The notes beneath the pieces are model-generated. The model saw nothing but the letters and a program-made list of their open reading frames with translations, ran no database searches and was not told the origin of the DNA. DNA of 32,516 nucleotides, taken from Dehalococcoidia bacterium (lineage in GTDB: Bacteria > Chloroflexota > Dehalococcoidia > DSTF01 > WHTK01). This document shows positions 3,884 to 23,760 of this stretch, piece by piece. The position numbers and the translations under genes were made by a program. Every line of letters begins with the position of its first letter. Position 1 is the first letter of the stretch. The stretch covers positions 1-32,516 of the forward strand of contig DATLYJ010000054.1 of the NCBI GenBank assembly GCA_035574915.1. The letters are read 5' to 3'.

Positions 3884-5113
3884 ATGCCGGAAGGGAGGCT
3901 GGGTATCGGCTTCGCCGGAGCGGGCTTCGCGGCGCGCTTCCATATCCAGAGCCTCGTGGGCGTGCGCGACGCCGACGTGGCCGCCGTCGCCGCGCCGACC
4001 CGCGAGCACGCCGAGGAGGCGGCCGCGCTGGCCCGTGGCCTCGGCGTCGGCGAGCCTGCTGTCTACGCGAGCGCGGGGGAGATGGCGAAGGACCCTCGCG
4101 TCGACGCCATCTGGATCTGCGTCCCGAACGACCTGCGGCTGGCCGTCGTCGAGGAAGTGCTCGATGCCGTGAAAGGCGGGGCCTCGCTGGTTGGGCTGGC
4201 GTGCGAAAAGCCGCTGGCCCGCAACGTCGCGGAAGCGCGGCGGATGGTCGAGTTGATCCAGGCCAGCGGCCTCCTGCACGGCTACCTGGAGAACCAGGTG
4301 TTCGCGCCCAGCCTTACGCGGGGCAAGGAGATCATCTGGCGGCGGGCTGCCGCTATCGCCGGCAGGCCTTACCTGGCGCGAGCGTCCGAGGAACACAGCG
4401 GCCCGCACATGCCCTGGTTCTGGTCCGGCGTCCGGCAGGGCGGCGGCGTCCTCAACGACATGCTCTGCCATTCCTTCGAGGCCGCGCGCTTTCTCCTCAC
4501 CGAGCCAGGACGGGCGCGCTCCAGCGTCGAAGTGCAGGAAGTCAGCGCCCAGATTGCGTCCCTGAAGTGGACCCGTCCCGACTACCAGCGCCAGCTGCGC
4601 GACGCGACAGGCGTCGATTACGGCACGGCCGCGGCGGAGGACTTCGCCCGCGCGACGGTGAAGGTCTCGGCGGACGGGCAGCCGGCAATCATCGAGGCGA
4701 CAACTTCCTGGAACTTCGTCGGCCCCGGCCTGCGCCTGCGCATGGAGCTATTCGGGCCGGAGTACTCGATGCAGGTGGACACGCTGCATTCCGACCTCTC
4801 CGTCTTCCTCTCGCGGCGGATCAGCGGCGCCGAGGGCGAGGACCTGGTCGAGAAGCAGAACGCGGAGCAGGGCCTCATGCCCGTGATCGCTGACGAGGCG
4901 GCGGCCTACGGCTATACGGCAGAGAACCGGCACATGGTCGAACGCTTTCTGGCCGGGCGCCAACCGGACGAGACCTGGGAGGACGGGCTCGAGGTCACGC
5001 GCGTGCTGATGGCGTGCTACCTTTCGGCCGAGCGCGGGGCGACCGTCCGTTTCCCGGCCGCAGAGCTGGAGACATTCGTGCCGGCCGTGGCGCAGGGGAC
5101 CTGGCGGCCGTAG
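3884..5113 (+). CDS. Gfo/Idh/MocA family oxidoreductase (409 aa)
   Basis: An NAD(P)-dependent sugar or sugar-derivative dehydrogenase. The N-terminal Rossmann fold shows GAGFAARFH at 12-20 and the family EKP triad at 108-110. The C-terminal alpha/beta domain has GGGVLNDMLCHSFEA, with Asp192 and His196 in the usual catalytic Asp/His positions. The C-terminal half is longer than in typical 340-residue members. The start codon follows a strong AGGAGG site by 8 nt. A serine hydrolase gene begins 33 nt downstream on the same strand, so the two probably form an operon. A second, shorter member lies convergently at 6324-7370 beside sugar-acting genes, which points to sugar catabolism. Substrate cannot be read from the sequence. 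Family is certain. Confidence 0.88.
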   Translation: MPEGRLGIGFAGAGFAARFHIQSLVGVRDADVAAVAAPTREHAEEAAALARGLGVGEPAVYASAGEMAKDPRVDAIWICVPNDLRLAVVEEVLDAVKGGASLVGLACEKPLARNVAEARRMVELIQASGLLHGYLENQVFAPSLTRGKEIIWRRAAAIAGRPYLARASEEHSGPHMPWFWSGVRQGGGVLNDMLCHSFEAARFLLTEPGRARSSVEVQEVSAQIASLKWTRPDYQRQLRDATGVDYGTAAAEDFARATVKVSADGQPAIIEATTSWNFVGPGLRLRMELFGPEYSMQVDTLHSDLSVFLSRRISGAEGEDLVEKQNAEQGLMPVIADEAAAYGYTAENRHMVERFLAGRQPDETWEDGLEVTRVLMACYLSAERGATVRFPAAELETFVPAVAQGTWRP

Positions 5114-5146
5114 GAGCGGCGCCGGGTAGTGCAGGAGGAGTGCGGG

Positions 5147-6310
5147 ATGGTAGACGAAAAGTTGAACCAGAAAGTCCGCGAGCTGCTGGAAGGCCAGGTG
5201 AAGAGCGGGAGGCAGATCGGCACGCAGGTCGCAGCCTACCGATACGGCAAGCTGTTGGTCGACGCCTGGGCGGGTACGATGGGCCCCCGGGACCCGCGCC
5301 CCGTCCAGGCTGACACGCTCTTCCCCAGCTTCTCGACGACGAAAGGGGTTGCGGCTACCGCGCTGCACGTCCTTGCCGACCGTGGCGTGATCGACTACGA
5401 GGCGCCGGTGGCGAAGTACTGGCCGGCCTTCGCTCAGAACGGCAAGGAGCGCATCACGGTCAGCCAGGCGATGAGCCACCAGGCCGGCCTGCACGCGATG
5501 CCGAGGCCTATGCGAGCCGACTTCGTTTGCGACTGGAGCGCAGGGCTGCGCTGGATGGAGGAGAGCGCGCCGGCCTGGGAGCCGGGGACGGCCACGGGCT
5601 ACCACGCGATCACCTGGGCCTGGATCGCCGGCGGCATCATCCAGTACGCCTCCGGCCGCCACGTGAGCGAGGTGGTCGAAGAAGAGATCGCGAGGCCCCT
5701 GGGAGTCAGCGGTGACATGTACATCGGCGTCCCGGCCGGCGTGGAGCCGAGGCTGGCCAGCCTGCTCGAAGCAGGGCCGGTGGTCGAGGCGGCGGCGGCC
5801 CAGCGAGCGGGTGTCACGCCCGACAGCGACTTCGCACGGGCCATGCCAACGGACCACGACTTCAGCTGGAACGATATGCGCCTTCGCCAGGCCTGCGTGC
5901 CCTCGGCCAACGGTCACTTCACGGCCCGCGCCCTGGCCCGCATGTACGGCGCCCTGGCCAACGGCGGCGAGATCGACGGCGTGCGCCTCGTGACGCCGGA
6001 GCGGGTCCGGGAGATGCAGCGCATCGTTACCAACGCCCCGGACCGCGTCCTGCTGGGCTGGCCGCTGCGCAAGGGCATCGGCTATTTCATGGGCGGCAAG
6101 ACGAACGGAGTGCACGGCGCCATGGGCCCGCGCGAGACCGCCTTCGGCCATCCGGGCGCCGGAGGTTCCGTAGCCTTCGCCGACCCCGAGGTCGGGCTCT
6201 CGATCGCCGTGACCATTAACCGCATGTACCAGGAAATGGTGGACCCTGGCCCTGACCCGGCGTTCGAGGTCTGTGAGCTGATCCGAAATGAACTCGGGGT
6301 GAACGGTTGA
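5147..6310 (+). CDS. Serine hydrolase, beta-lactamase/EstB-like family (387 aa)
   Basis: A penicillin-binding-protein-fold hydrolase of the class C beta-lactamase/esterase superfamily. The nucleophile motif SxxK is STTK at 63-66, the Tyr motif is Tyr152-His-Ala (YxN replaced by YxA), and the third motif is HPG at 335-337. No signal peptide is visible, so a cytoplasmic esterase, transesterase or lactone/amide hydrolase is more likely than a periplasmic beta-lactamase (inference). The start at ATG 5147 is chosen because AGGAGGAG lies at 5133-5140. The in-frame GTG at 5129 is ahead of this site. It follows the oxidoreductase by 33 nt and converges with the next gene, leaving 13 nt between stops. 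The operon context suggests it cleaves an ester or lactone of a sugar compound, but this is a guess. Confidence 0.85.
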   Translation: MVDEKLNQKVRELLEGQVKSGRQIGTQVAAYRYGKLLVDAWAGTMGPRDPRPVQADTLFPSFSTTKGVAATALHVLADRGVIDYEAPVAKYWPAFAQNGKERITVSQAMSHQAGLHAMPRPMRADFVCDWSAGLRWMEESAPAWEPGTATGYHAITWAWIAGGIIQYASGRHVSEVVEEEIARPLGVSGDMYIGVPAGVEPRLASLLEAGPVVEAAAAQRAGVTPDSDFARAMPTDHDFSWNDMRLRQACVPSANGHFTARALARMYGALANGGEIDGVRLVTPERVREMQRIVTNAPDRVLLGWPLRKGIGYFMGGKTNGVHGAMGPRETAFGHPGAGGSVAFADPEVGLSIAVTINRMYQEMVDPGPDPAFEVCELIRNELGVNG

Positions 6311-6323
6311 GCGCCCGCGGTGA

Positions 6324-7370
6324 TTAAGCGTCCAGGCGGACGGCCCGCCCGATGCGGGAAGATTCGTAGCACGCATCCAGGACGCGCTGGACGTTGAGTG
6401 TCTCTTCGGGGAGCACTCGCAGGTGCTCCTTGCCCTCGACGACCGCCAGGAAGTGCGCGACCGCTTCTTCCCAACCAGACGAGCGCGGGACGTCTAGCGG
6501 CTCGTCCACCTTTTCGCCCTTGTCCCACCTGTAGACCATGCGCGCTTCGTTGTCCGCGCCGGCATGGGTACCGAGGATGTGGATGTACTCGCGCTCGCGC
6601 TCGATATGCGAGGCCCACGAAGCCTGCACCGTCATGGTCGCGCCGTCCTCGAAGCGCACGAAGGCCGCCCCGAAGTCATCGACGTCGAACGCGGCCGGGT
6701 CCCAGGCGTTGCGGCGGGCCGCGGCAACCTCCGGGCGGTTGCCGAAGAAGGTGCCGACCTGGGCCATCACCTCTACCGGCCGCGGCCGGCCCATGAACCA
6801 CATGGCGCAGTCGATCACGTGCACGCCGATGTCGAGCATCGCGCCGCCGTGGGAGAAGCGCCGTTGCGTGAAAGAGCCCCAGGTCGGGATGCCGAGGCGC
6901 CGGATGTAGACCGCGTTCGCGTGGTACACGCGGCCGAACTCGCCCGCGGCGATGCGCTCCTTGATCGCGACGTTCACCGGCCGGAAGCGCAGGTTCTGCT
7001 CCACCATCAGGTAGGAGCCTGCCCTGGCCGCGGCCTCGAACATGGCTTCCGCCTCGGCGAGCGAGGTCGCGAGCGGCTTTTCGCAGAGGACGTGCGCCCC
7101 GGCAGCCAGCGCCTCCATCACGACCTCGCGATGGAAGACGTTGGGGACGCAGACGCTGACGACCTCTGGCTTCTCGCGCGCCAGCATCTCGCGCCAGTCG
7201 GTATAGGCGCGCTCGACCCCGTATTCGGCGCCGACCTTCGCGGCCAGCCCGGGGACGATGTCGGCCAGGCCGACCAGGCGGGCGCCCGCCTTGCGGTACC
7301 CGGGCAGGTGTCCGTGGGTGGCGATCCACCCCGCGCCGACCACGGCGACCTTCGGGCCTCCGCCCGCCAC
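6324..7370 (-). CDS. Gfo/Idh/MocA family oxidoreductase (348 aa)
   Basis: An NAD(P)-dependent dehydrogenase with typical length and motifs: VVGAGWIA (10-17) for dinucleotide binding, EKP at 97-99, and GGAMLDIGVHVID (175-187) providing Asp180 and His184. It has the look of members that oxidise hydroxyls of glycosides or sugar acids. The GTG start at 7370 directly abuts the TAG stop of the isomerase gene, with no Shine-Dalgarno site, so translation is probably coupled to the gene upstream. It is the last gene of the minus-strand trio DUF1080 - isomerase/epimerase - oxidoreductase. The trio suggests this enzyme makes or reduces the 3-keto group in a 3-keto-glycoside pathway (inference from gene company). 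Confidence 0.88.
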   Translation of the reverse strand: MAGGGPKVAVVGAGWIATHGHLPGYRKAGARLVGLADIVPGLAAKVGAEYGVERAYTDWREMLAREKPEVVSVCVPNVFHREVVMEALAAGAHVLCEKPLATSLAEAEAMFEAAARAGSYLMVEQNLRFRPVNVAIKERIAAGEFGRVYHANAVYIRRLGIPTWGSFTQRRFSHGGAMLDIGVHVIDCAMWFMGRPRPVEVMAQVGTFFGNRPEVAAARRNAWDPAAFDVDDFGAAFVRFEDGATMTVQASWASHIEREREYIHILGTHAGADNEARMVYRWDKGEKVDEPLDVPRSSGWEEAVAHFLAVVEGKEHLRVLPEETLNVQRVLDACYESSRIGRAVRLDA

Positions 7371-8189
7371 CTAGAGGAGCCTTTCGAGGAGGGCCTTCGC
7401 GGCCAGGATGCCTTCCCGCTCCGGCAGCCGCTGGCCCTCATATTCGATGCCGACGAAGCCCTGATAGCCGGCTTCTTTCACGATCCCGATCATCCGGGCG
7501 AAGTCGATGCGGGTCTCGTTCCCGGCTTCGTCGAAGTCATAGCATTTGGCGCTGACCGCCTTTGCGTAAGGCATCATCTTGCGCACGGCCTCGTAGCGGT
7601 CGGTCTGGGGCGGGAAGTTGCCGAAGTCCGGGAGGGAGCCGAAGTTCTGCCTTCCGACCGTCTGGAACAGCGAGGCCAGCCAGTCCGGCTCGGCGAAGCA
7701 GCCATAGTGGCCCGCCTGGCTGTGGTTCTCGATGAGCACGTTGATACCGGCCGCGCTCGCGTATTCGGTCAGGGCCGAGAAGCTCTCGGTCGCGCGCTCC
7801 AGCATTGCCGCCGGGTCGGAGTCGTCGCCGTGGACGTTGCAGCGGATCGAGTGACAACCGAGCACTTCGGCGATGTCGACCCACTTGTGATGGTTCTTCA
7901 CTGCCTGCCGGCGTTCGGCTGCGTCGGCGGCGGCCAGCTCGCCCTCGCCGTCGCACATGATCAGGAGGAGTCGCAGGTCAAGCTCATCGGCGAGCTTGCG
8001 CACCCGCTGCAGGTAGCGGTATTGCGGCGAAGGAAAAAACGTGTTCACGAACTCGAAGCCGCGGATGCCAAGGTCCGCGCACATCTGCAGCATCCCGAGC
8101 TGGTCGATTTCCTTGGCGAAGAAGAGCCGGTGCATGGACCAGGCGGCGAGAGACACCTGGAGAGTGGAGGGCTGGCTGTCAGGCGCCAT
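7371..8189 (-). CDS. Sugar phosphate isomerase/epimerase-like TIM-barrel protein (272 aa)
   Basis: A member of the xylose isomerase-like/AP endonuclease 2 TIM-barrel superfamily. Candidate metal ligands appear in order: Glu154 in VLIENHS, Asp188 in LPDFGNF, a Lys/Asp segment near 215-220, and Glu249 in GIEYEG. Such proteins isomerise, epimerise or eliminate sugars and sugar acids. Beside a DUF1080 protein and a Gfo/Idh/MocA enzyme, a role as 3-keto-sugar epimerase, lyase or hydratase is plausible. The ATG has no Shine-Dalgarno site. A TAAACT hexamer ends 6 nt before it, which suggests a leaderless transcript. That hexamer overlaps the stop codon of the preceding gene, 9 nt away. Fold is confident; reaction is not. 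Confidence 0.85.
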   Translation of the reverse strand: MAPDSQPSTLQVSLAAWSMHRLFFAKEIDQLGMLQMCADLGIRGFEFVNTFFPSPQYRYLQRVRKLADELDLRLLLIMCDGEGELAAADAAERRQAVKNHHKWVDIAEVLGCHSIRCNVHGDDSDPAAMLERATESFSALTEYASAAGINVLIENHSQAGHYGCFAEPDWLASLFQTVGRQNFGSLPDFGNFPPQTDRYEAVRKMMPYAKAVSAKCYDFDEAGNETRIDFARMIGIVKEAGYQGFVGIEYEGQRLPEREGILAAKALLERLL

Positions 8190-8195
8190 CGCGCT

Positions 8196-8201
8196 AGTTT
8201 A
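8196..8201 (-). promoter_or_regulatory. -10 hexamer for leaderless start at 8189
   Basis: TAAACT on the minus strand, followed by exactly 6 nt and then the ATG at 8189, so +1 would be the A of the start codon. It overlaps the TAA stop of the DUF1080 gene. No -35 resemblance is seen. Confidence 0.5.
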
Positions 8202-8798
8202 GCGTCCGCCCGCTCGTAGCGGGGCAACGCTCACCTCGCGGAAGCGGACCACGGACGCGGCGTCGTGGTTCTGCAGGCCGATGTACCCTCGCGCCGGGCG
8301 TGGGCCGCGCTCCGGCTCGTAGTCCCGTTGGCGTGGCGGCACCGGCTGGGAGGGGTCGAAGTCCGTGAGGAGGACGCCGTTGAGTGTCACGCGGACGCGC
8401 TCGCCGTCGAGGTCAATGTCCATCGTGTTCCACTCGCCCGGGGGCCTGTCCGGCTCCAGCGAGGTGCGTGTCATGGAGTAGATGACGCCAGTGCGGTGCC
8501 ATTCGTCCTGGCCGGCGTTGATCTGCACCTCATAGCCGTTGTGCACGGCGAACCAGGGATCCGGCGGCGGCGCGGCGATGCGGATGAAAATCCCGGAATT
8601 GTCCTCGCGACGCGTGGTCCGGTACACGACGCGCAGCGTGCAGTCGCCGAAGGTCTCGCGCGTGTACCAGAGGAGCCCCATCCCGCCCTCGGTCTGGAGG
8701 CAGCCGTCCACAACCGTGAAGCCGCCCGGCCCCACGTGCTCCCAGCCGTCGAGGTCCCGGCCGTTGAAGAGCTGACGTCGATCAGACTGCGCGGTCAC
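8199..8798 (-). CDS. DUF1080 (3-keto-disaccharide hydrolase-like) protein (199 aa)
   Basis: A concanavalin-like beta-jelly-roll protein of the DUF1080 family, now associated with cleavage of 3-keto-glycosides. Family hallmarks seen in order are LFNGRDLDGW near the N-terminus, DNSGIFIR, GYEVQI, GEWN and GYIGLQNH near the C-terminus. The length is that of a single domain. I place the start at the GTG at 8798, because TACAAT sits exactly 6 nt upstream, which fits a leaderless message. An in-frame GTG at 8816 lies before that hexamer. No signal peptide is visible from either start, whereas many relatives are exported, so this copy may act in the cytoplasm on imported glycosides. It heads the trio with the isomerase and oxidoreductase genes. 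Confidence 0.87.
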   Translation of the reverse strand: MTAQSDRRQLFNGRDLDGWEHVGPGGFTVVDGCLQTEGGMGLLWYTRETFGDCTLRVVYRTTRREDNSGIFIRIAAPPPDPWFAVHNGYEVQINAGQDEWHRTGVIYSMTRTSLEPDRPPGEWNTMDIDLDGERVRVTLNGVLLTDFDPSQPVPPRQRDYEPERGPRPARGYIGLQNHDAASVVRFREVSVAPLRAGGR

Positions 8799-8804
8799 TC
8801 CGGG

Positions 8805-8810
8805 ATTGTA
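8805..8810 (-). promoter_or_regulatory. -10 hexamer for leaderless start at 8798
   Basis: TACAAT on the minus strand, 6 nt before the GTG at 8798, which would place +1 on the start codon. No clear -35 is present. Confidence 0.5.
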
Positions 8811-8871
8811 CGCCACAGCAGGACTTCGACCTGGGACCCGACTGGCAGGAAGTGGCCACGTCAGCGGGTGC

Positions 8872-8923: not shown

Positions 8924-9355
8924 ATGACCAGGCTGAACCCGTACTTGAACTTCCCCGGCAACGCGGAAGAAGCGTTCAACTTCTACAAGTCGGTCTTTGG
9001 CGGCGAATTCAGCGCGCTCGTCCGGTTCAAGGACATGCCGATGGAGGGCGCGAGCGTCTCCCCGGCTGACGAGAACAAGATCCTGCACATAGGCCTGCCG
9101 ATCGGGGACAACGTCCTGATGGCGTCGGACGCTCCCGAGGGCATGGGGCCAAAGGTCAACTTTGGCAACCACGCCTACATTTCCGTCCACCCCGACAGCA
9201 GGGCCGAGGCAGACCGCATCTTCAACGCCCTCTCCGCCGGTGGCGAAATCGAGATGCCCATCGGCGACCAGGCCTGGGGCGACTACTACGGCAGCTTCAA
9301 AGACAGATTTGGCGTGCAGTGGATGGTGAACTACTCGCCAGCCGCCGCCTCCTGA
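8924..9355 (+). CDS. VOC family protein, PhnB/glyoxalase-like (143 aa)
   Basis: A single-chain vicinal-oxygen-chelate-fold protein of the PhnB (YjdN) type. Typical signatures are the N-terminal NPYLNFPGNAEEAFNFYKSVF block, an internal LPIGDNVLMASD strand, and the closing FGVQWMVNYS strand near the C-terminus. Length matches the family (about 140). Metal ligands are not fully conserved in PhnB-like members, so the reaction is unknown. They are often annotated as glyoxalase or resistance proteins without proof. The ATG follows an AGGAGG site by 5 nt. The gene is divergent from DUF1080 and convergent with the LLM oxidoreductase, and appears monocistronic. Confidence 0.87.
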   Translation: MTRLNPYLNFPGNAEEAFNFYKSVFGGEFSALVRFKDMPMEGASVSPADENKILHIGLPIGDNVLMASDAPEGMGPKVNFGNHAYISVHPDSRAEADRIFNALSAGGEIEMPIGDQAWGDYYGSFKDRFGVQWMVNYSPAAAS

Positions 9356-12495: not shown

Positions 12496-13800
12496 CTAGC
12501 GGGAAGCGCCCGCGCCGATGCCGGCGTAACGGATGCCGGCCGCCTCCACCCGCGCGCGCTCGAAGGCGCCCCGGCCGTCGAGGAACACCCGGCAGCCCCT
12601 AAGCGCCGAGAGGTCCAGGCTCTCATACTCGCGATGCGCCGCCTGCAGGACGGCGGCGTCCACCGCCGCCTCCGGCGGCAGCGGCGAGGGCTCGAGGCCC
12701 TGCCCCCGGATCTCGTCCGGCGAAAACAGGGGGTCGTGCACGAGGACGCGGACTCCGCGGGCGCGGAGCGCTGCCGCCATGAGGAGCGTGCTTGAGAACG
12801 CCGACTCCTTGACGTTTCCCCGGTAGGCGAGCCCCAGGACGAGGACGGTGCGGCCCTCGAGTGAGGTCACGCCGGTCTGTCTGAGGGCGTCCTCCAGCAC
12901 CTCGACCGCGTAGCCCGCCATGCCGTCGTTGAGGTCGCGGCCGGCAGAAACCAGGCGCAGGTCCGGGAGCGCGTCCAGCAGGAAGTAGGGGTACACGGGG
13001 ATGCAGTGGCCCCCCACGCCCACGCCAGGGGTGTGCAGGTGTGAGAACGGCTGGGAGTTCGCGGCGCGAGCCGCGGCCGCGTAGTCGATCCCGAGCGCGT
13101 CCGCGGCCCGCGCTAGCTCGTTCGCCAGGGCGATGTTCACGTCGCGGTAGATGCTTTCCGCGAGCTTGGCGAATTCGGCCGTCTCGGCATCCGGCAACAG
13201 CATTACCTCGGCGTCCAGCATGCGGCGGTAGAAGGCCGCGGCCCGGTCGCCCGCTTTCGGGCTGACGCCGCCCACCACCTTCGGGTAGGTCCGCAGGTCC
13301 CGGAACACCTGGCCCGAATACACGCGTTCGGGGCTGTAGGCCAGGTCGAAGTCGGCCGGCGCCAGGCCGGAGCCGCGGGCGAGGTCGCGGCCGAAGCGTT
13401 GGCGGGTCACCCCTACCGGCACCGTCGTTTCGAGGACCACGAGGTGGCCGGGCCGCATCCCGCCGGAGATCGCGGCCGCGGCGGCGTCCAGGTGCTTGAA
13501 GTCGGGCCGCCGCTCAGGGTCGATGCCCACCGGCACGATGCAAACGACGACGTCGCTCTCGCGCACGGCGGCGGCGGTGTCCGTGGTCGCGCGCAGCATG
13601 CCGGCGGAGCGCGCCGCCGCCAGGGCCTCTTCCAGGCCCGGCTCGCCGCTGATCGGGCACTCGCCGTCGTTCACCGCGCCGACGACGCCTTCGTCCACGT
13701 CGCAGCCCAGGACGCTTGCGCCCTTGGAAGCGAACTGGGCCGCCAGGGGTAAGCCGACCTTCCCCAACCCGACGACGGCGACTCGCAAGTCCGCGCTCAT
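12496..13800 (-). CDS. Nucleotide-sugar 6-dehydrogenase, WbpA/WecC type (434 aa)
   Basis: UDP-glucose/GDP-mannose dehydrogenase family. It carries out the two-step NAD-dependent oxidation of the C6 hydroxyl of a UDP-HexNAc to a uronic acid. The N-terminal Rossmann fold starts VAVVGLGKVGLPLA (7-20), the middle has the TTVPVG and AYSPERV segments, and the catalytic cysteine is Cys266 in GVGGHCIPVYPYF. The C-terminal UDP-binding domain follows (VLVLGLAYRGNVKES). The wording around Cys266 (HCIPVYPYF) is that of the UDP-HexNAc dehydrogenases rather than UDP-glucose dehydrogenase. It is the last gene of the five-gene operon and overlaps the preceding gene by 4 nt (ATGA). In this setting the substrate is most likely UDP-GlcNAc (WbpA role); UDP-ManNAc (WecC role) is the alternative. 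Confidence 0.9.
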   Translation of the reverse strand: MSADLRVAVVGLGKVGLPLAAQFASKGASVLGCDVDEGVVGAVNDGECPISGEPGLEEALAAARSAGMLRATTDTAAAVRESDVVVCIVPVGIDPERRPDFKHLDAAAAAISGGMRPGHLVVLETTVPVGVTRQRFGRDLARGSGLAPADFDLAYSPERVYSGQVFRDLRTYPKVVGGVSPKAGDRAAAFYRRMLDAEVMLLPDAETAEFAKLAESIYRDVNIALANELARAADALGIDYAAAARAANSQPFSHLHTPGVGVGGHCIPVYPYFLLDALPDLRLVSAGRDLNDGMAGYAVEVLEDALRQTGVTSLEGRTVLVLGLAYRGNVKESAFSSTLLMAAALRARGVRVLVHDPLFSPDEIRGQGLEPSPLPPEAAVDAAVLQAAHREYESLDLSALRGCRVFLDGRGAFERARVEAAGIRYAGIGAGASR

Positions 13801-14822
13801 TCGATCCGTTCCGGGACCACAGGCCTGCCGCTGCGGGCCGACTCCGTGAGCGCGTCCGCCACGGCCAGGGCGGCGAGCGCGTCGCGCGCGCTCACGGGCA
13901 GCGGCCCGCCGCTCTGCAGCGCCGCGACGAACGCCTCCAGCTCGGCCACGAGTTGCTCTCGGGGCTCGATGTCGATGCGGGTGCCGCCGGGGCCGCGGGC
14001 GAAGCGCGAGTCCGCCCAGTCGCGCACGGGGCCGGTGCGCTGCTCCGGTGTCCTGTAGAAGTCGAGCGTCTGGGCGGCGTAATCGAGCACGAGTAAGCCC
14101 TGCTCGCCGAGCACCACCAGGTCGCGCAGTCGTCGGGGAGAGAGCCAGTTGACCTCGAGCGTGGCGATCGGCCCCTGCCCGTCGCCGGCTTCGAAGCGCA
14201 GGACGCCGGCGATGCCGTTCTCCAGCGGCGTCACGACGCCGCTGACGGCGGCGGCATAAGCTTCCGCGACCTCTGTCCCGGCGATGAGGCGCGCTGTGTC
14301 GATGTCGTGGATGGCGCTGTCGTGGACGACGTTGAGGTCGCGCGGCGGGACGCGGAGGGCGCCGGCGCGGCGGGCGGTGATCTGGAGCACGCGACCGACT
14401 TCGCCTTGCTGCACGCGCCGCGCGGCCTCCTGCACTGCCGGATTGAAGCGCTCGATGTGGCCGGCCATTAGCGGCACGCCGGCCGCTGCCGCGGCCTGCA
14501 CCAGCCGGCGCCCTGCCGCCAGCGAGGGCGCCAGCGGCTTCTCGACCAGCAGGGCGCAGCCCGCCTCGACCGCGGCCAGCGCGGCCTCCTCGTGCAAGGC
14601 GGCGGGCAGGGCTATGACGACGGCGTCGAGTCGCTCGGCCGCCAGCATCTCCCGGAAGTCGCCGTAGGCCTTCGTGCCGGGAGGGCGCGGGGCCTGCTTC
14701 AGGCGCGACGGGTCGCTGTCGCAGATGGCGGCCAGGCGCGCGCCCGGGAGGGAGGCGAGCACGCGGGCGTGGTTCGCGCCAAAGCCGAGGCCGGCGACAC
14801 CGAAGGCGAGGTCCGTCTTCAT
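13797..14822 (-). CDS. Gfo/Idh/MocA oxidoreductase, UDP-GlcNAcA 3-dehydrogenase (WbpB/WlbA-like, 341 aa)
   Basis: It is predicted to oxidise the C3 hydroxyl of UDP-GlcNAcA to a 3-keto sugar, the step before transamination. Motifs are GLGFGANHA (11-19), EKP at 94-96, GHIERFNPA at 121-129 and HDSAIHDID at 167-175, the latter typical of the nucleotide-sugar branch of the family. The start at 14822 is chosen because its ATG overlaps the TGA of the upstream aminotransferase gene (ATGA). An in-frame upstream start at 14846 would lie well inside that gene. The same 4-nt overlap joins it to the dehydrogenase downstream. Family certain; the exact substrate rests on the operon. Confidence 0.88.
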   Translation of the reverse strand: MKTDLAFGVAGLGFGANHARVLASLPGARLAAICDSDPSRLKQAPRPPGTKAYGDFREMLAAERLDAVVIALPAALHEEAALAAVEAGCALLVEKPLAPSLAAGRRLVQAAAAAGVPLMAGHIERFNPAVQEAARRVQQGEVGRVLQITARRAGALRVPPRDLNVVHDSAIHDIDTARLIAGTEVAEAYAAAVSGVVTPLENGIAGVLRFEAGDGQGPIATLEVNWLSPRRLRDLVVLGEQGLLVLDYAAQTLDFYRTPEQRTGPVRDWADSRFARGPGGTRIDIEPREQLVAELEAFVAALQSGGPLPVSARDALAALAVADALTESARSGRPVVPERIE

Positions 14823-15907
14823 TCGGCAGCGTGCTCCGCGGTCCACTCGTTCACGGCGGCGACGATCGCGTCGAGGTCTTCGCGGCTTAGCCCGGGGTGC
14901 ACGGGCAGTGACAGCACCTCGGCCGCCAGCCGCCGCGCGGCGGGCACAGTGTCGCCGCTGTAGCCGAGGCCGCGGTAGAGAGGCTGGTCCGGGATGGGCG
15001 TCGGGTAGTAGATGCCGGTCTGGATGCCGCGCCCGGCGAGCCAGGCGGCGAGGCCGTCCCGGTCCCGGGGCACGCGGACGGTGTACAGGTGCCAGACCAT
15101 GCCTTCGTCCTCCGGACAGGGCGGCAGGACGAGCCCCCTCAGGCGCTGCGATAGGTAGAGGGCATTCTGGCGTCGTCGGGCGTTGAGGGCGCCCAACCGG
15201 TCAAGCTGGGCCAGGGCGAGCGCCGCCTGGAACTCCGTCATCCGGTAGTTGAAGCCCAGGATGGAGCTGCTGTAGCGGGACTCCTCGCCGTGGGAGCGCA
15301 GGAGACGGAGGCGCGCTGCGAGCGAGGCGTCGTCGGTCGTGACTACGCCGCCTTCGCCAGAGGTCATGTTCTTGGTGGCGTAGAGAGAGAAGCAGCCGGT
15401 CCCGGCGGCCCCGGCCCGGCGGCCGGATCGCCGTGCGCCGTGAGCCTGGGCGGCGTCCTCGATTAGCGCCAGGCCGTGCTGCCGCGCGATGCCTTCGATG
15501 GCGTCGATGTCGCAGAGGCGGCCGTACAGGTGCACCGGCAGGATGGCTTTCGTGCGCGGCGTGATCGCTGCTTCGATGAGCGATTCGTCGATGTTGCCGT
15601 CTTCCTTGACGTCGACGAACACGGGCCTGGCGCCGGTGGCGAGGACCATGTTCGCGGTCGCCTGGAAGGTAAAGGGGGTGGTGATTACCTCATCGCCCGG
15701 GCCGATGCCGTGGGCGAGCAGGGCCAGGTGCAGCGCTGCCGTCCCGTTCGCGACGGCGACCGCCTCGGCAGTACCGCTGACTTCCGCAGCGAAGCGACGC
15801 TCTAGCTCGCGGGTGACGGGCCCGTTGACCAGCTGGCCGGAGTCCAGCACTCGTAGGACCGCCCTGCGCTCTTCCTCACCGATGATGGGCTGGGCGATGC
15901 GGATCAT
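14819..15907 (-). CDS. DegT/DnrJ/EryC1/StrS aminotransferase (WbpE-like, 362 aa)
   Basis: A PLP-dependent sugar aminotransferase of fold type I, expected to convert the 3-keto nucleotide sugar to the 3-amino sugar with glutamate as donor. The PLP lysine is Lys179 in SLYATKNMTSGEGG. The cofactor-binding Asp151 lies in IEDAAQAHGA, and the substrate-binding N-terminal segment has GPVTRELERRFA. The start at 15907 is chosen over 15955 because its ATG overlaps the stop codon of the acetyltransferase gene by the ATGA pattern. Translational coupling on both sides argues for fixed stoichiometry in one pathway. Length is normal for the family. Confidence 0.9.
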   Translation of the reverse strand: MIRIAQPIIGEEERRAVLRVLDSGQLVNGPVTRELERRFAAEVSGTAEAVAVANGTAALHLALLAHGIGPGDEVITTPFTFQATANMVLATGARPVFVDVKEDGNIDESLIEAAITPRTKAILPVHLYGRLCDIDAIEGIARQHGLALIEDAAQAHGARRSGRRAGAAGTGCFSLYATKNMTSGEGGVVTTDDASLAARLRLLRSHGEESRYSSSILGFNYRMTEFQAALALAQLDRLGALNARRRQNALYLSQRLRGLVLPPCPEDEGMVWHLYTVRVPRDRDGLAAWLAGRGIQTGIYYPTPIPDQPLYRGLGYSGDTVPAARRLAAEVLSLPVHPGLSREDLDAIVAAVNEWTAEHAAE

Positions 15908-16476
15908 GCGGCACTCGGCAGGTCGTAGGTCTCGTGGCAGGTCGGGCAGGACCACTGATGGGCGCGGTCGCCGGGCTTCAGGCGGTGGCCGCGTTTGCAG
16001 ACGTAGCCCACCAGCTTCGCCGGGCTGCCGACCACTAGTCCGTGGTCGGGCACGTCGTGGACCACCAGCGCGCCGGCGCCGACCATCGCCCAGCGGCCTA
16101 TCGTGACGCCTGGGAGGATGACGCAGCCGGCGCCGATGGAGGCGCCGTACTTCACCAGGGTGTGGACGGGGATCCAGTCCTCGTCCGAGATCTGGCGCCC
16201 GTCGGGGTCGACCGAGCGCGGGTACTTGTCATTCGTGAAGGTAGTGTGGGGGCCGACGAAGACGCCATCTTCGAGCGTGACCCCGCGGTAGACGCTGACC
16301 CGGTTCTGGAGCTTGACGTTGTTGCCGACCACGGCGCCGTGGTCGACGTACACGCTATGTCCAAAGTTGCAGTCGTCGCCGACGACGGCGCCGGCGCGGA
16401 TATGACAGTAGTGCCAGATGCGGGTGTTGGCGCCCACCCTCGCGCCCTCCTCGATCTCGGCAGTGGGGTGAATCAT
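15904..16476 (-). CDS. Left-handed beta-helix N-acetyltransferase (WbpD/WlbB-like) with C-terminal zinc-ribbon-like tail (190 aa)
   Basis: Hexapeptide-repeat acyltransferase, predicted to acetylate the 3-amino group of UDP-GlcNAc(3NH2)A from acetyl-CoA. Repeats begin at IHPTAEIEEGARVGANTRIW and run to about residue 140. The FTNDKYPR motif at 80-87 is characteristic of the 3-N-acetyltransferase branch. Residues 160-185 add Cys160-Lys-Arg-Gly-His164 and Cys177-x2-Cys180-His, a possible small zinc site that goes beyond the basic fold. The ATG at 16476 is preferred; a TTG one codon upstream is possible. No strong Shine-Dalgarno site is seen. It lies 51 nt after the epimerase gene and overlaps the aminotransferase gene by 4 nt. 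Confidence 0.88.
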   Translation of the reverse strand: MIHPTAEIEEGARVGANTRIWHYCHIRAGAVVGDDCNFGHSVYVDHGAVVGNNVKLQNRVSVYRGVTLEDGVFVGPHTTFTNDKYPRSVDPDGRQISDEDWIPVHTLVKYGASIGAGCVILPGVTIGRWAMVGAGALVVHDVPDHGLVVGSPAKLVGYVCKRGHRLKPGDRAHQWSCPTCHETYDLPSAA

Positions 16477-16527
16477 CAATCCGTCATTGCGGGGGCGCTG
16501 GCCCGAAGCAATCTCCCTGTCCTTCGC

Positions 16528-17622
16528 TCAGGCGTGGTGGCTACTCGCGTTGGGTCCGTCCGGGCTCGCTCGTTCGAGGATTTCGACTATTCTCGCCGCC
16601 GCACGACCATCGCCGAAGGCGCGCTCGGGGGCCTCGAGAGGCAGCGGCCGCCTGGCCGCCGCTACTATCCGCGCCGGGTCCGAGCCGGCGAGCACGTTCC
16701 AGCCCGACTTCAGCGTCTCGGGCCACTCCGTCTCCTCCCGCAGCGTAACACAGGGCACTTCCAGGAAGTAAGCCTCGCGCTGGACGCCGCCGGAGTCAGT
16801 CAGGACGGCGCGCGCGTTGCGCTCCAGCGCCAGCATTTCGATGTAGCCCACGGGTTCCGAGATACGCAGGTTGTCGCCGGGGAGGACTGCCGCCTCCCGC
16901 GCTGCGGCCAGCGTCCTGGGGTGTAGCGGCAGCACCACGGGCAGGTCCAGGAACGACAGCGCCTGGAAGAGGCGCCGCAGGACGCCGTGGTCGTCCGTAT
17001 TGGCCTGGCGGTGGATGGTCGCGAGGTAGTACGCCCCGCGCTCGACGCCGCGGGCGCGCAAGAGCTCTTCCTCGCGGCGCTCGACCAGGGGCAACGTCGC
17101 GAGCAGGGCGTCGTACATCAGGTCGCCGACGCGGTGCACGCCCTCGGTGATGCCCTCGGCCGCGAGGCAGGCGACGGCGGTGGCCGTGGGCGCGAAGAGG
17201 TAGGTGGAGAGGTGGTCTGTGACCACGCGGTTAACCTCCTCCGGCATCGAACGGTCGTAGCTGCGCAGGCCCGCCTCGACGTGCGCGACGGGCAGGCCGA
17301 GCTTTGCCGCGGCGAGCGCCCCGGCGAGCGTCGAGTTCGTGTCCCCGAAGACGATGACGCAATCGGGCCGCTGCTCCTGCAGGACGCCCTCGAGGCGTTC
17401 GAGGATGCGCGCCGTCTGGACGGCGTGGCTCGCGGAGCCGACGCCGAGGTTGAGGTCCGGCGCAGGCAGGTGGAGGTCGCGGAAGAAGATGTCGGAGAGG
17501 AGGTCATCGTAGTGCTGGCCGGTGTGCACCAGCACCTCTTCGTGCCGCTGGCGCAACTCGCGGCTGAGCATGGCCGCCTTCACGAACTGCGGCCTGGCGC
17601 CGACGACGGTAAGGAACCTCAC
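16528..17622 (-). CDS. wecB: UDP-N-acetylglucosamine 2-epimerase, non-hydrolysing (WecB/WbpI type, 364 aa)
   Basis: GT-B-fold epimerase that inverts C2 of a UDP-GlcNAc derivative to the manno form. Conserved elements are GARPQFVKAA (8-17), TGQHYD (34-39), Asp94 in FGDTNSTLAG, Glu116 in HVEAGLRS, the PEEVNR segment (127-132) with Glu129, His204 in ATIHRQAN, and SGGVQREA (277-284). The company of four genes for 3-acetamido-uronic acid synthesis suggests that it acts last, on UDP-GlcNAc(3NAc)A (WbpI role). It could instead act on plain UDP-GlcNAc (WecB role). It is the first gene of the operon. Its GTG start has no Shine-Dalgarno site, and CATAAT lies 6 nt upstream, so the operon message may be leaderless. 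Confidence 0.92.
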   Translation of the reverse strand: MRFLTVVGARPQFVKAAMLSRELRQRHEEVLVHTGQHYDDLLSDIFFRDLHLPAPDLNLGVGSASHAVQTARILERLEGVLQEQRPDCVIVFGDTNSTLAGALAAAKLGLPVAHVEAGLRSYDRSMPEEVNRVVTDHLSTYLFAPTATAVACLAAEGITEGVHRVGDLMYDALLATLPLVERREEELLRARGVERGAYYLATIHRQANTDDHGVLRRLFQALSFLDLPVVLPLHPRTLAAAREAAVLPGDNLRISEPVGYIEMLALERNARAVLTDSGGVQREAYFLEVPCVTLREETEWPETLKSGWNVLAGSDPARIVAAARRPLPLEAPERAFGDGRAAARIVEILERASPDGPNASSHHA

Positions 17623-18626: not shown

Positions 18627-18659
18627 GGAGGCCGCTAGCTCTTTAGCGGGGCGGCCTCC
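18627..18659 (-). terminator. Hairpin around the stop codon of the binding-protein gene
   Basis: GGAGGCCGC (18659-18651) pairs with GCGGCCTCC (18635-18627). The TAG stop at 18637-18635 is partly in the downstream arm. There is no U-tract. Confidence 0.35.
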
Positions 18660-20476
18660 GTGTCCACCCACCACTCGAGGCGCTCGTGCACCGGCGGCGC
18701 GCCCTGGGTGTAGCCCCGGAAGGCGCCGACGTTGCCCAGCACCGGCCAGTAGAGCGCGAAGTTGAGCGTGTACGCCGTCACAGGGATGCCGTAGGCCGCG
18801 TCCGCCAGGTACTCGTCCAGCTTGCGCGCAATCTGCTTCTGCTTGTCGAGGTCGAACTCGCCGCGCAGGTCGTCGATCATCTTGATCAGCGTGGCGTCGC
18901 CCTTGCGCGCGTCACCGATGTCCGTCGCCCCCATGTAGCGCGAGGCTGTCGGGTTAAGGAGCGAGTACAGCCAGGTGCCGAGCGAGGTGTACGCGGTCTC
19001 GGCGCGCAGGTTCAGGCCGGCGAAGCCCTTCTTCTCGCCCTGGACGTAGGCGAAGTGGTAGTTCGGCAGGAAGTCAGTCTGGTACTCCCGGGGCTTCGCC
19101 ACCACGTTGAAGCCGCCCTCCTTCAACATGCCCAGCGTGATCGCGTGCAAGCGCAGGTACGTGGCGCTGTAGCCATCGGCGCGGTAATTGAAGTCGACCT
19201 CGGCGCCGTTATAGCCGGCGGCGGACATGAGCTTCTTCGCCTCCGCCGGGTTGTAGTTCAGGTACTTGGCGTTCGGCCCGAACTTCTTCTCGTCCCTCGG
19301 GTCCACCCAGAAGAAGTCGAAGCCCGGTGTGACCAGTCCCGAGGTGCGGGCGGCGACGTCGAGGCCGTCTGCCGCGAACTTCTGGCGGTTGCCGACCACG
19401 TCGATGATCGCCTCGCGGTCGATGAGCATCGAGACGGCCTGGCGCAGGCGCTTGTCGCGAAAGATCGAGTTATTGTCGTAACCGAAGGCGATGGTCGTGC
19501 CGCCGCTGCTGTAGACGTCGTCCTGGCGGAGGGAGGTCTGGGGCTGGTCCTTCTTCGCCTGGATGACGTCGTCCTGGGTCACGACCGTCGTCCAGATGTT
19601 GCCGGCCTTGAACTGGGCCAGGCGCGTGGCGTATTCGGGGACAATCGCCACCTCCCAGGAGTCAGGGAAGGGCCGCCCCTTGACGTGGTAGTCGGGGTTC
19701 TTCGTGAAGGTCAGGCCCTGGGAAGGGCGGTAGTCTGAGAGCATCCAGGGCCCGTATCCGCGGGCCGTACCTCGGGGGTCGAACCCGCCGTCCGCTTCGC
19801 GCGGCATGATCGGCAGGATGACGCTGGAGGCAAAGAGGTGCAGCACGGCCGCGTCCGGGTGGTGCAGTTGCGCGACCACTGTGCTCTTGTCCGTCGCCTT
19901 GAGGGACATCACCGGCACGCCCGGCGACGACTCGCTGTAAAGGATGTCGCCCTTCAGCGGACTGAGGCGGGTGAAGCGGTCCCAGCTGAACACCACGTCA
20001 TCGGCGTCGATGGGCCGGCCGTTCGTCGGGGACCTCGGGTCCCACTTGAGGCCCTGGCGCAGCTTGAAAGTCAGCTGCAGCTTGTCGCCCGTGATCTCGT
20101 AGTGGTCCGCCAGCTCACCTTCGTTCTCGCCCGAAGCCCGGTGCGGCGCCTTTGCCACCTTGAACTTCAGCAGGCGCGGGTAGACGTAGTTGGAGACGCC
20201 CGTGCGCGTGAAGGAGTTGTTGGTGAGGGCGTCCATGGAGGTGATGTCCTCGTTGCGGAAGTCCCTCACCGCGCCGCCCGGCTTCGCCCGCGAAGTCGAG
20301 TCGACAGGCTGCGAGAGCAGGCCGCTCGCGTCGCCGCCGGCCGTCCCTGACTCTCCTCCTCCGCCACAACCGGCCACGCCCAGGGCGATTGCGCCGGCCC
20401 CGGCCACGGCTGCCCCGCCCAGCGCGCGCCGGCGCGAAAGGCGGCTCTTCGTCATTCGTTCCCAGTAACCGGACAT
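18635..20476 (-). CDS. ABC transporter substrate-binding protein, family 5 (Dpp/Opp-like), Tat lipoprotein (613 aa)
   Basis: An extracytoplasmic binding protein for peptides, nickel or other oligomeric solutes, delivering to an ABC importer not found here. The N-terminus has a twin-arginine signal (SRLSRRRALGG, RRR at 15-17), a hydrophobic core and a lipobox VAGC with Cys37 as lipid anchor. The mature part follows the SBP_bac_5 plan with NGRPIDADDVVFSWDRF, GYGPWMLSDYRP, the RLAQFKAGN segment and RLRQAVSMLIDREAIID. The start at 20476 (MSGYWERM) is chosen over 20527 because a GGGAGCAGG site lies a few nt upstream and because the paralogue at 25644 starts with the same MxYWER pattern. A good promoter lies at 20519-20547. 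Confidence 0.9.
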   Translation of the reverse strand: MSGYWERMTKSRLSRRRALGGAAVAGAGAIALGVAGCGGGGESGTAGGDASGLLSQPVDSTSRAKPGGAVRDFRNEDITSMDALTNNSFTRTGVSNYVYPRLLKFKVAKAPHRASGENEGELADHYEITGDKLQLTFKLRQGLKWDPRSPTNGRPIDADDVVFSWDRFTRLSPLKGDILYSESSPGVPVMSLKATDKSTVVAQLHHPDAAVLHLFASSVILPIMPREADGGFDPRGTARGYGPWMLSDYRPSQGLTFTKNPDYHVKGRPFPDSWEVAIVPEYATRLAQFKAGNIWTTVVTQDDVIQAKKDQPQTSLRQDDVYSSGGTTIAFGYDNNSIFRDKRLRQAVSMLIDREAIIDVVGNRQKFAADGLDVAARTSGLVTPGFDFFWVDPRDEKKFGPNAKYLNYNPAEAKKLMSAAGYNGAEVDFNYRADGYSATYLRLHAITLGMLKEGGFNVVAKPREYQTDFLPNYHFAYVQGEKKGFAGLNLRAETAYTSLGTWLYSLLNPTASRYMGATDIGDARKGDATLIKMIDDLRGEFDLDKQKQIARKLDEYLADAAYGIPVTAYTLNFALYWPVLGNVGAFRGYTQGAPPVHERLEWWVDTEAAPLKS

Positions 20477-20518
20477 GTACCTGCTCCCTTCCGTGGCGCG
20501 GCTTGCGAATGATGAAGA

Positions 20519-20547
20519 CTTATACACTCATTCCCGCGCCCTGTCGC
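20519..20547 (-). promoter_or_regulatory. Promoter for the binding-protein gene at 20476
   Basis: On the minus strand GCGACA (20547-20542), a 17-nt spacer and TATAAG (20524-20519). It lies downstream of the FAD oxidoreductase hairpin, so this gene has its own transcription start. Confidence 0.5.
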
Positions 20548-20588
20548 GAACCGCGCAAATCTCTCAAGTCCGGCGCCGGATGTGTAAC

Positions 20589-20612
20589 GAGGCCGGCACT
20601 GAGGCCGGCCTC
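20589..20612 (-). terminator. Terminator-like hairpin after the FAD oxidoreductase gene
   Basis: GAGGCCGGC (20612-20604 on the minus strand) pairs perfectly with GCCGGCCTC (20597-20589) around a 6-nt loop. It lies 25 nt after the stop codon. Only GTTACACA follows, so there is no real U-tract. Confidence 0.5.
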
Positions 20613-20637
20613 CGCGCCTACAGGGAAGGCTGCGCGA

Positions 20638-21858
20638 CTAGCCGGCCGTGGGATCAGCAGCGGCCATGATCCGGCCCAGGTTCTCCTCAGAGAAGAACTC
20701 GGCGGGCGAGGTGGCGCCCGCCGCCATGCGCACGAAGCCGTCCATCGCCTCCTGGCTGCGCGTGACAGACGCGAGCACCTTCTGCATTTCCTCCGGCGGG
20801 GGCTCGAGGGTCGCGAGCTGGGTCGTGAACTCGTACATCGCCATGACGTGGCGGTCGCGGGCCGCCTGGTAGTCGGACATTGCGGCGTAGAAGTGGCGGG
20901 AACCCGTGAACGATTCGTCCAGGGCCTGAGCGAGCAGTTCGGCGTCGCGGAAGGCATCCTGCATGCCCTGGCCCGTGATCGGGTCTTTGTTGTACGCGGC
21001 GTCGCCGACGAGCGCCCAGCCCGGCCCGAAGGGTTTGCGGAAAAAGTTCGGCACGAACATGCCGCGGAAGCGTTCCTCCCGCCTGCCCGCGCGGGCTCGT
21101 TCCGCGAACTCCGGCACCAGGTCGAGGGCCTTCCAGAAGTTGCCCTCGATGTCGTGCCGGTTCGCCACGAACTCCGCGTAGGGCCAGCCGGCGATGACCA
21201 GGGTGAGGCCGTCGTTCGTTGGCCAGGCGGCATAGCCACGGTAAGGCCGCACGTAGGTCTCCATGCGGCCGCGCATAGGAACACCGCTCCAGTAGCTGTA
21301 GTAACCGACAAGGAGAGGCGGCTTCGCGTTGTATTGCTCCGGGTTCACGGCCTCGGCGACGAGCGACCGCAGCCCATCGGCGCCCACGACAACGCGGGCG
21401 CGTTCCGTCACGCTGCCGCCACCGTAGGCGTGGCCGCGGATGCCGGCGACGTTGCCTTCTTCGAAGATGAGCTCATCCACGGTGAAGCGCTCCCTGACCT
21501 CGGCCCCCGCTTCGGCGGCAGCATCGAGCAGCAGCTTGTCGATCACGGTGCGTCGCGGCGCATAGGATGCCTCAGCCTCGGCTGTTGCCGGTGAGCCTTC
21601 GAGCGTGAAGGGCCCGAAGTTGAAAGCGTAGGTGTCGATCGGCGGGCAGTCTGTCGCCGCCAGCCGCTCGAAGAGCCCCCAACGCTTCAGGGCGGCGATC
21701 CCGGGCGTGTGCACGATATGCGTCGACACCGTGTCGCTCGGAAAGCTCGCCTTGTCCACCAGCAGGATCCTGTAGCCTTTTCGGGCCAGGAGCATCGCCA
21801 GCGGCGAACCGGCGCATCGAGCCCCCACGACAATCGCGTCGTACTTACTCTCGGTCAT
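20638..21858 (-). CDS. FAD-dependent oxidoreductase, geranylgeranyl reductase/PHBH-like (406 aa)
   Basis: A flavoprotein monooxygenase or reductase of the p-hydroxybenzoate hydroxylase fold. The FAD-binding Rossmann motif is a variant, VVGARCAGS (10-18), and the adenosine-ribose acidic residue is in LLVDKA (33-38). Further motifs are PRRTVIDKLLLDAA (101-114), the DG motif VVVGADGLRS (157-165), and GDAAYNKDPITGQGMQDA (285-302), which holds the flavin pyrophosphate and ribityl contacts. The ATG at 21858 follows GGGAGG by 6 nt. The frame stays open upstream to 22227, but that part overlaps the LuxR gene. It lies between a LuxR regulator and a binding-protein gene on the same strand. Substrate unknown; aromatic or isoprenoid compounds are typical. 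Confidence 0.87.
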   Translation of the reverse strand: MTESKYDAIVVGARCAGSPLAMLLARKGYRILLVDKASFPSDTVSTHIVHTPGIAALKRWGLFERLAATDCPPIDTYAFNFGPFTLEGSPATAEAEASYAPRRTVIDKLLLDAAAEAGAEVRERFTVDELIFEEGNVAGIRGHAYGGGSVTERARVVVGADGLRSLVAEAVNPEQYNAKPPLLVGYYSYWSGVPMRGRMETYVRPYRGYAAWPTNDGLTLVIAGWPYAEFVANRHDIEGNFWKALDLVPEFAERARAGRREERFRGMFVPNFFRKPFGPGWALVGDAAYNKDPITGQGMQDAFRDAELLAQALDESFTGSRHFYAAMSDYQAARDRHVMAMYEFTTQLATLEPPPEEMQKVLASVTRSQEAMDGFVRMAAGATSPAEFFSEENLGRIMAAADPTAG

Positions 21859-21924
21859 CCCGATCCTCCCTCGGTTGATGAAGCGAGGATCGGTCCTGGC
21901 ACGCCGGGCACTCATCGCCCGGGT

Positions 21925-21966
21925 GTACCAAATGCGCCGAGGCGCCGTGTGGTCTTTTCGTACCAA
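21925..21966. repeat. Direct repeat GTACCAA, possible operator
   Basis: GTACCAA occurs at 21925-21931 and 21960-21966, 35 nt apart and in the same orientation, in the 130-nt gap between the LuxR-type gene and the FAD oxidoreductase gene. On the transcribed strand it reads TTGGTAC. It could be a binding site for the neighbouring regulator, but this is only suggestive. Confidence 0.25.
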
Positions 21967-21988
21967 CGTCCAGAGGGGAAAGACAGGT

Positions 21989-23623: not shown

Positions 23624-23710
23624 GGATGGGGCGGAGCCTCACTCCTCCTCCGTCACGAACACTTTACACGCGGGGTCAACCGCCCTGGATCGCGGCGCGC
23701 GGGGGGACGA

Positions 23711-23742
23711 AGAGGGCCGGCCTTGGAGAAGGCCGGCCCTCT
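23711..23742 (-). terminator. Perfect 14-bp hairpin after the second binding-protein gene
   Basis: AGAGGGCCGGCCTT pairs with AAGGCCGGCCCTCT around a 4-nt loop. It begins 19 nt after the stop codon at 23761 and before the LuxR gene. There is no U-run on the minus strand, yet its size and place fit an intrinsic transcription stop. Confidence 0.6.
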
Positions 23743-23760
23743 GTCTGTGTGCTGCCGCGG

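Follow-up and report, generated by a model that had tools for sequence, protein, structure and literature searches.

Background

The closest described counterpart of the gene set analysed here is the 3-keto-glycoside pathway of Bacteroides thetaiotaomicron (BT2156-BT2159), which proceeds by C3 oxidation, elimination, hydration, and reduction, and to which BT2156 and BT2159 contribute a TIM barrel and a Gfo/Idh/MocA oxidoreductase. BT2157 is its DUF1080 protein (PDB 3osd, 8rr2, 8tda, 9fbe), and BT2158 has been described as a periplasmic glycoside 3-dehydrogenase (PMC11300592). A comparable set of genes lies in the 32,516 nucleotides (nt) of contig DATLYJ010000054.1 (hereafter the window) from a Dehalococcoidia bacterium (GCA_035574915.1; Chloroflexota), where genes for a DUF1080 protein, an AP_endonuc_2 TIM barrel, and a Gfo/Idh/MocA oxidoreductase (GIM1) follow one another on the minus strand and a second Gfo/Idh/MocA gene (GIM2) converges on them (Table 1). 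With a probability of about 0.65, these four enzymes would form an oxidation-elimination-hydration-reduction route that cleaves glycosidic bonds in the cytoplasm, for which we infer the activities, the substrate, and its import. It is more probable still that the module acts in some way on 3-keto sugars or glycosides, while the exact assignment of steps to enzymes proposed below is tentative and falls somewhat short of even odds.

The window and BT2156-BT2159 share a DUF1080 protein, a TIM barrel, and two Gfo/Idh/MocA enzymes, as well as the DUF1080 fold and a histidine (BT2157 His275, His184 in the window), but the window proteins carry no export signals, their DUF1080 belongs to another subfamily, and the second oxidoreductase gene is convergent. 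The C-glycoside deglycosidase (CGD) system DgpA-DgpB-DgpC resembles the locus in that GIM1 is nearest to DgpA and the TIM barrel has the fold and most catalytic residues of DgpC-type alpha subunits; it differs in having a beta-subunit gene, which Pfam annotation did not recognise among the genes adjoining the window's set, and a metal-ligand histidine that is a serine here, and the DUF1080 gene is extra to it. The Agrobacterium GlycDH/AtOGE/AtHYD/Gfo and Bacillus smithii LgdA-LgdB1-LgdB2-LgdC operons likewise combine two oxidoreductases with two enzymes for cleavage or hydration in a single neighbourhood, but they have two TIM-barrel-type proteins and no DUF1080, and the first Agrobacterium enzyme is a flavoenzyme; the four-step schemes of the A. 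tumefaciens operon (PMC10628242) and of the levoglucosan operon (PMC7676230) match the logic proposed here. The ycjS-ycjR-ycjQ set of Escherichia coli, which epimerises 3-keto-glucosides, also combines a TIM barrel with two sugar dehydrogenases; unlike the window, it belongs to a larger cluster that also encodes phosphorylases and an ATP-binding cassette (ABC) importer, and it has no DUF1080.

Family assignment and structural models

The DUF1080 protein matched PF06439 with 150.7 bits (cut-off 26.8) over residues 14-197, covering profile positions 3-186 of 187, while searches against NCBIfam and PHROGs gave no match. Its AlphaFold2 model (predicted local distance difference test score, pLDDT, 92.8) had only DUF1080-family structures as best fold matches. 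Among them were 9fbe (Z 21.6) and 8rr2 (Z 20.7), two BT2157 entries whose PDB titles name a 3-keto-glycoside eliminase/hydratase and, as its ligand, 2-hydroxy-3-keto-glucal or 3-keto-glucose, and also 8v31 and 8tda, 3-keto-2-hydroxy-glucal hydratases from Alistipes and B. thetaiotaomicron; lectin-like folds outside the family reached at most Z 17.4. Identity to the BT2157-type structures was 18-22% in the structure comparison. The sources for BT2157 are PMC13273386, PMC9007349, PMC11003636, and the titles of its PDB entries. Its His275 aligns with His184 of the window protein in the 8tda segment, in an alignment of 31 rows across which His184 is invariant, and through four bridging Bacteroidota sequences, where His266 of the 8tda chain equals His275 provided that residue 290 is the last of the chain, in line with the entry's own numbering. 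The H275N variant of the B. thetaiotaomicron lyase is deficient in hydration, hence its use in PMC13273386. Asn73-Ser74-Gly75, Glu96-x-Gln98, and Gly127-Glu128-Trp129-Asn130 are shared as well. The structure comparison that the sequence-only reading had proposed places BT2157 entries among the best matches, and of the catalytic residues whose loss it had named as decisive, the one checked, His275, is kept. The DUF1080 protein is predicted to be 3-keto-glycoside eliminase/hydratase-like.

The TIM barrel (PF01261, 97.7 bits, far over the cut-off; no match in PHROGs) gave a model with pLDDT 92.6, best matched by 4ovx, an uncharacterised protein of Planctomyces limnophilus (Z 39.6, root-mean-square deviation 1.1 over 259 residues, 46% identity). 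Directly below it, Foldseek ranked CGDs in places 2-10, and VIA-align placed Art22 second (Z 30) and gave CGDs, including DgpC and AgCarB2, Z 27-28. In a profile alignment, Glu154, His156, Asp188, Lys215, Glu249, and Glu251 fall on metal and catalytic residues of CGDs: at the metal site (AgCGD2 positions 147/179/269/271/305, Glu/Asp/His/Lys/Glu), Glu154, Asp188, Lys215, and Glu249 are kept and His269 is replaced by Ser213, and catalytic His149 and Glu307 of AgCGD2 correspond to His156 and Glu251. In CGDs, mutations of the ExH, D, K, and ExE residues lower activity, and the alanine mutant of the metal-ligand histidine loses most of it (PMC8563793). The protein is therefore of the TIM type that the sequence-only reading had recognised, yet its label of isomerase/epimerase needs correcting, as the modelled fold is close to the glycoside-eliminating alpha subunits of CGDs, with one metal ligand gone. 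The step that it may catalyse is uncertain, mainly because of this replacement.

GIM1 (PF01408, the NAD-binding Rossmann domain, 103.2 bits, far over the cut-off) is nearest to DgpA (3.4e-55) and DgpA1 (7.6e-54), with the next type of protein about 27 orders of magnitude away (4.6e-27); in phmmer, DgpA scored 190.8 bits and inositol dehydrogenases about 54-62 bits. DgpA-type enzymes oxidise C3 of C- and O-glycosides with NAD+ (PMC11239390). Lys98 of a CEKP motif and Asp180 and His184 of an Asp-x3-His motif are invariant in GIM1 within the host's order. For GIM2, which shows mostly 65-71% identity across the order, no close solved relative was found. Our guess, made from these sequence relationships, is that the DgpA-like GIM1 would be the oxidising enzyme and GIM2 the reducing one.

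Conservation of the gene set

The neighbourhood survey, also suggested by the sequence-only reading, covered 18 genomes of the host's order and recovered the trio in identical order in five further genomes. This recurrence, together with the single DUF1080 gene of the host genome, is more than chance would give; the same genome has three AP_endonuc_2 genes, one of them resembling endonuclease IV, and five Gfo/Idh/MocA genes over the cut-off. The TIM gene was present in 12 of the 18 genomes and DUF1080 in six, each time with the TIM gene. A close GIM2 accompanied it in 10 of these 12 and in none of the six TIM-less genomes (Fisher p 0.0015), and in the two TIM-bearing genomes without GIM2 the contig stops near GIM1, so the second oxidoreductase appears as the pathway partner that it had been taken for. 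The TIM gene followed by GIM1, with GIM2 facing GIM1, was seen in nine genomes including the window, the remaining three having contig ends near the genes. The conserved core is TIM-GIM1 with a convergent GIM2; two families have DUF1080 added upstream, and it is found in half of the TIM-bearing genomes. The three-gene cassette originally described hence stands as an association, with DUF1080 as an optional member. A sample of 400 genomes of the phylum had strong TIM matches only within the order; two remote ones (33-34% identity) lay outside it. Among named genomes, the closest relatives of the trio are in metagenome-assembled genomes of Chloroflexota, e.g., RBG_16_68_14.

A substitute for DUF1080 was sought in the genomes of group f3 and rejected, the adjoining gene encoding a DNA alkylation repair protein and not a sugar enzyme. 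This gene lies by the TIM gene in several of the f3 genomes that have no DUF1080 (L103:5769-6494, L101:3317-4069, L105:4099-4770). At L166 and L167 (G016:C47:15075-16299), GIM2 is split over two frames with an internal TGA, so that either the gene is damaged or the assembly is wrong.

Apparently cytoplasmic and exported versions

A hydropathy test showed no N-terminal export signal in the DUF1080 protein, and reading the sequence showed none in the TIM barrel or GIM1. The test, which involved no trained predictor, looked for a 10-residue stretch with a mean hydropathy of at least 1.6 ahead of the domain or for a twin-arginine-like motif. Close DUF1080 relatives at loci without a TIM gene passed the hydropathy test in 74 of 76 cases, against one of seven distinct copies found with a TIM gene (L008, by way of a doubtful upstream start codon); with L008 counted as signal-less, the Fisher value for this contrast is 9e-9, which is descriptive only because the relatives are not independent. 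The DUF1080s of the trio group in a single clade (support 98/85). In other phyla, seven or eight of the eight TIM relatives have a twin-arginine-like motif ahead of the domain, whereas the 11 relatives within the order start at or near the domain or have arginines only in apparent sequence 5' of the true start. The order's DUF1080 and TIM proteins thus do without the export signals that other phyla mostly have, which supports a cytoplasmic route, as the sequence-only reading had supposed from the N-termini, and with copies that appear cytoplasmic the substrate must be imported.

The gene set also occurs in exported form in the Rhodothermota (Rhodothermus sp. isolate S012_61, genome G460, L184:301-5983), where the TIM relative (44% identity) has a start resembling that of twin-arginine translocation (Tat) substrates, the DUF1080 is of the BT2157 type with a lipoprotein-like start, and the first Gfo/Idh/MocA protein, also with a Tat-like start, belongs to a different subfamily from GIM1. 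GIM2 is 61% identical to that of the window and again lies convergently on the opposite strand. As DUF1080 and the first oxidoreductase come from other subfamilies, this locus speaks for the parts being functionally linked.

A DUF1080 subfamily 51-67% identical to that of the window (L009-L087) occurs widely, in Acidobacteriota among other phyla. Its members almost always begin with an export-like N-terminus and lack a TIM or Gfo/Idh/MocA gene next door. The conserved neighbours of these exported relatives, among which Pfam recognised an amino acid permease, a TonB receptor, a protease, and CoaE, offered no clue to a pathway. At one Armatimonadota locus (L035), a Gfo/Idh/MocA gene was located approximately 5 kb away, with no TIM gene in the neighbourhood.

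Proposed pathway and alternative functions

Starting from what the sequence and the models present directly (gene set, folds, key residues, conserved neighbourhood, and lack of export signals), we propose that one Gfo/Idh/MocA enzyme, most likely GIM1, would use NAD+ to oxidise an imported glycoside at its C3 hydroxyl. The resulting 3-keto group would acidify H2, allowing DUF1080 and/or the TIM barrel to eliminate the aglycone and leave 2-hydroxy-3-keto-glucal; this enone would be hydrated to a 3-keto sugar by DUF1080 (His184) or by the TIM barrel, and GIM2 would reduce the product to the sugar, regenerating NAD+. The 3-keto-glycoside route put forward from the sequence alone is in this way favoured by the DUF1080 fold match with its conserved histidine, the closeness of GIM1 to DgpA, and the conserved module.

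Several observations weigh against this proposal. Fold comparison with VIA-align also gave the TIM model Z 26-27 with ketohexose 3-epimerases and Z 25.6 with YcjR (6wn6), so that CGDs and this group, about 1 Z unit apart, come close to a tie. The metal-ligand histidine is replaced by serine (Ser213) throughout the order and also in 4ovx, and Pfam annotation of the adjoining genes showed none for a CGD beta subunit, although no dedicated search was made for it; the TIM barrel is therefore not a standard CGD. DUF1080 is absent from six genomes carrying the TIM gene and is hence not essential to the core. GIM1 and GIM2 missed every NCBIfam equivalog cut-off (GIM1 scored 42 bits with BT_2158, 28 with BT_2159, and 114 with levoglucosan dehydrogenase, where 750, 650, and 650 are needed), and no transporter or sugar kinase gene adjoins the module.

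The chief alternative is that the core carries out an epimerisation like YcjS-YcjR-YcjQ of E. coli, in which a 3-keto-glycoside is made, epimerised by the TIM barrel next to the ketone, and reduced with its bond uncut, DUF1080 adding cleavage in some lineages only. The ycj cluster has one isomerase and two dehydrogenases (PMC11543891), the same composition as in the six genomes with the TIM gene and two Gfo/Idh/MocA enzymes that have no DUF1080, YcjR is among the fold matches, and the lost metal ligand would fit an altered chemistry. However, CGD subunits outrank YcjR in both structure comparisons, the ExH and ExE residues are common to the TIM barrel and the CGDs, and the TIM gene accompanies DUF1080 in two phyla whose DUF1080 subfamilies differ, and we therefore regard epimerisation as unlikely.

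Rather less likely again, the four-step chemistry could have as its substrate a C-glycoside, or an anhydrosugar (e.g., levoglucosan), instead of an O-glycoside, given that GIM1 is closest to DgpA and has levoglucosan dehydrogenase as its best NCBIfam match (114.2 bits, cut-off 650); yet the CGD beta subunit, unrecognised here by annotation, provides a residue needed for C-C cleavage (PMC10628242, PMC13273386), and the levoglucosan pathway has two TIM barrels and no DUF1080 (PMC7676230). It is quite improbable that free cyclitols or monosaccharides (inositol, L-glucose, or similar) are the substrates of the oxidoreductases and the TIM barrel, with DUF1080 an unrelated hydrolase or binding protein co-transcribed by chance. 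This view has in its favour the IolG (inositol 2-dehydrogenase) matches of GIM1 (110 bits) and GIM2 (69.5 bits), the fold that DUF1080 has in common with CBM66 and lectin domains, and the half of module-bearing genomes without DUF1080. Inositol catabolism itself was rejected, as these scores are far under the 355-bit cut-off and no other inositol-catabolism genes were recognised nearby; moreover, GIM1 is much closer to DgpA than to inositol dehydrogenases, DUF1080 enzymes score approximately 3 or more Z units over CBM66 and lectins, and His184 is invariant.

The chemistry and all the families of the preferred glycoside-cleaving route are already known; as far as can be told, its apparent move to the cytoplasm and the linked TIM subfamily with serine for histidine are new. 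A wider form of this reading, in which a pathway exported in other phyla was internalised in one order of the Chloroflexota, with a TIM lyase/hydratase that acts on imported glycosides by a new metal-site chemistry without the histidine ligand, is possible but doubtful. If the cytoplasmic cleavage route is correct, it would add uncultured Chloroflexota to the gut and plant-associated bacteria with non-hydrolytic glycoside breakdown, and the exported and internal copies, with and without DUF1080, would offer a natural comparison for telling the cutting from the hydrating enzyme. Through the Ser-for-His change, the mechanism of the TIM barrel would become directly testable.

Locus layout and neighbouring genes

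The three minus-strand open reading frames (ORFs) are consecutive, with gaps of 9 nt (DUF1080 to TIM) and 0 nt (TIM to GIM1), and both their arrangement and the two plus-strand genes converging on them agree, by ORF coordinates and Pfam, with the initial description. For all five genes the Pfam scores are far over the cut-off. Start positions of relatives make GTG 8798 a possible start of DUF1080 instead of 8816. The serine hydrolase, which the sequence-only reading had mentioned alongside the set, was rejected as a member, since its homologues in the order sit on other contigs and none adjoins the TIM module.

Table 1 Genes of the module and the adjoining serine hydrolase, with window positions
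Feature	Position	Strand	Remarks
DUF1080 (PF06439), 3-keto-glycoside eliminase/hydratase-like (predicted)	8199-8816	-	205 aa; no export signal seen
AP_endonuc_2 TIM barrel	7371-8189	-	272 aa; no Tat signal seen
GIM1, Gfo/Idh/MocA NAD-dependent oxidoreductase	6324-7370	-	348 aa; nearest solved relative DgpA
GIM2, second Gfo/Idh/MocA oxidoreductase	3884-5113	+	409 aa; convergent with GIM1
Serine hydrolase, beta-lactamase fold (PF00144)	5129-6310	+	Starts 15 nt past the GIM2 end; neighbour, not a module member

A glyoxalase/VOC-type gene (8924-9352) lies divergently from the DUF1080 gene at a distance of 107 nt. Further along the window, a large LuxR-type regulator is flanked by two family-5 extracellular solute-binding proteins (18635-25644), with no permease genes recognised among the scanned ORFs. 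Genes for a UDP-sugar dehydrogenase, a Gfo/Idh/MocA protein, a DegT aminotransferase, a hexapeptide transferase, and a UDP-GlcNAc 2-epimerase (12496-17622) make up a nucleotide-sugar cluster that probably serves surface polysaccharide synthesis.

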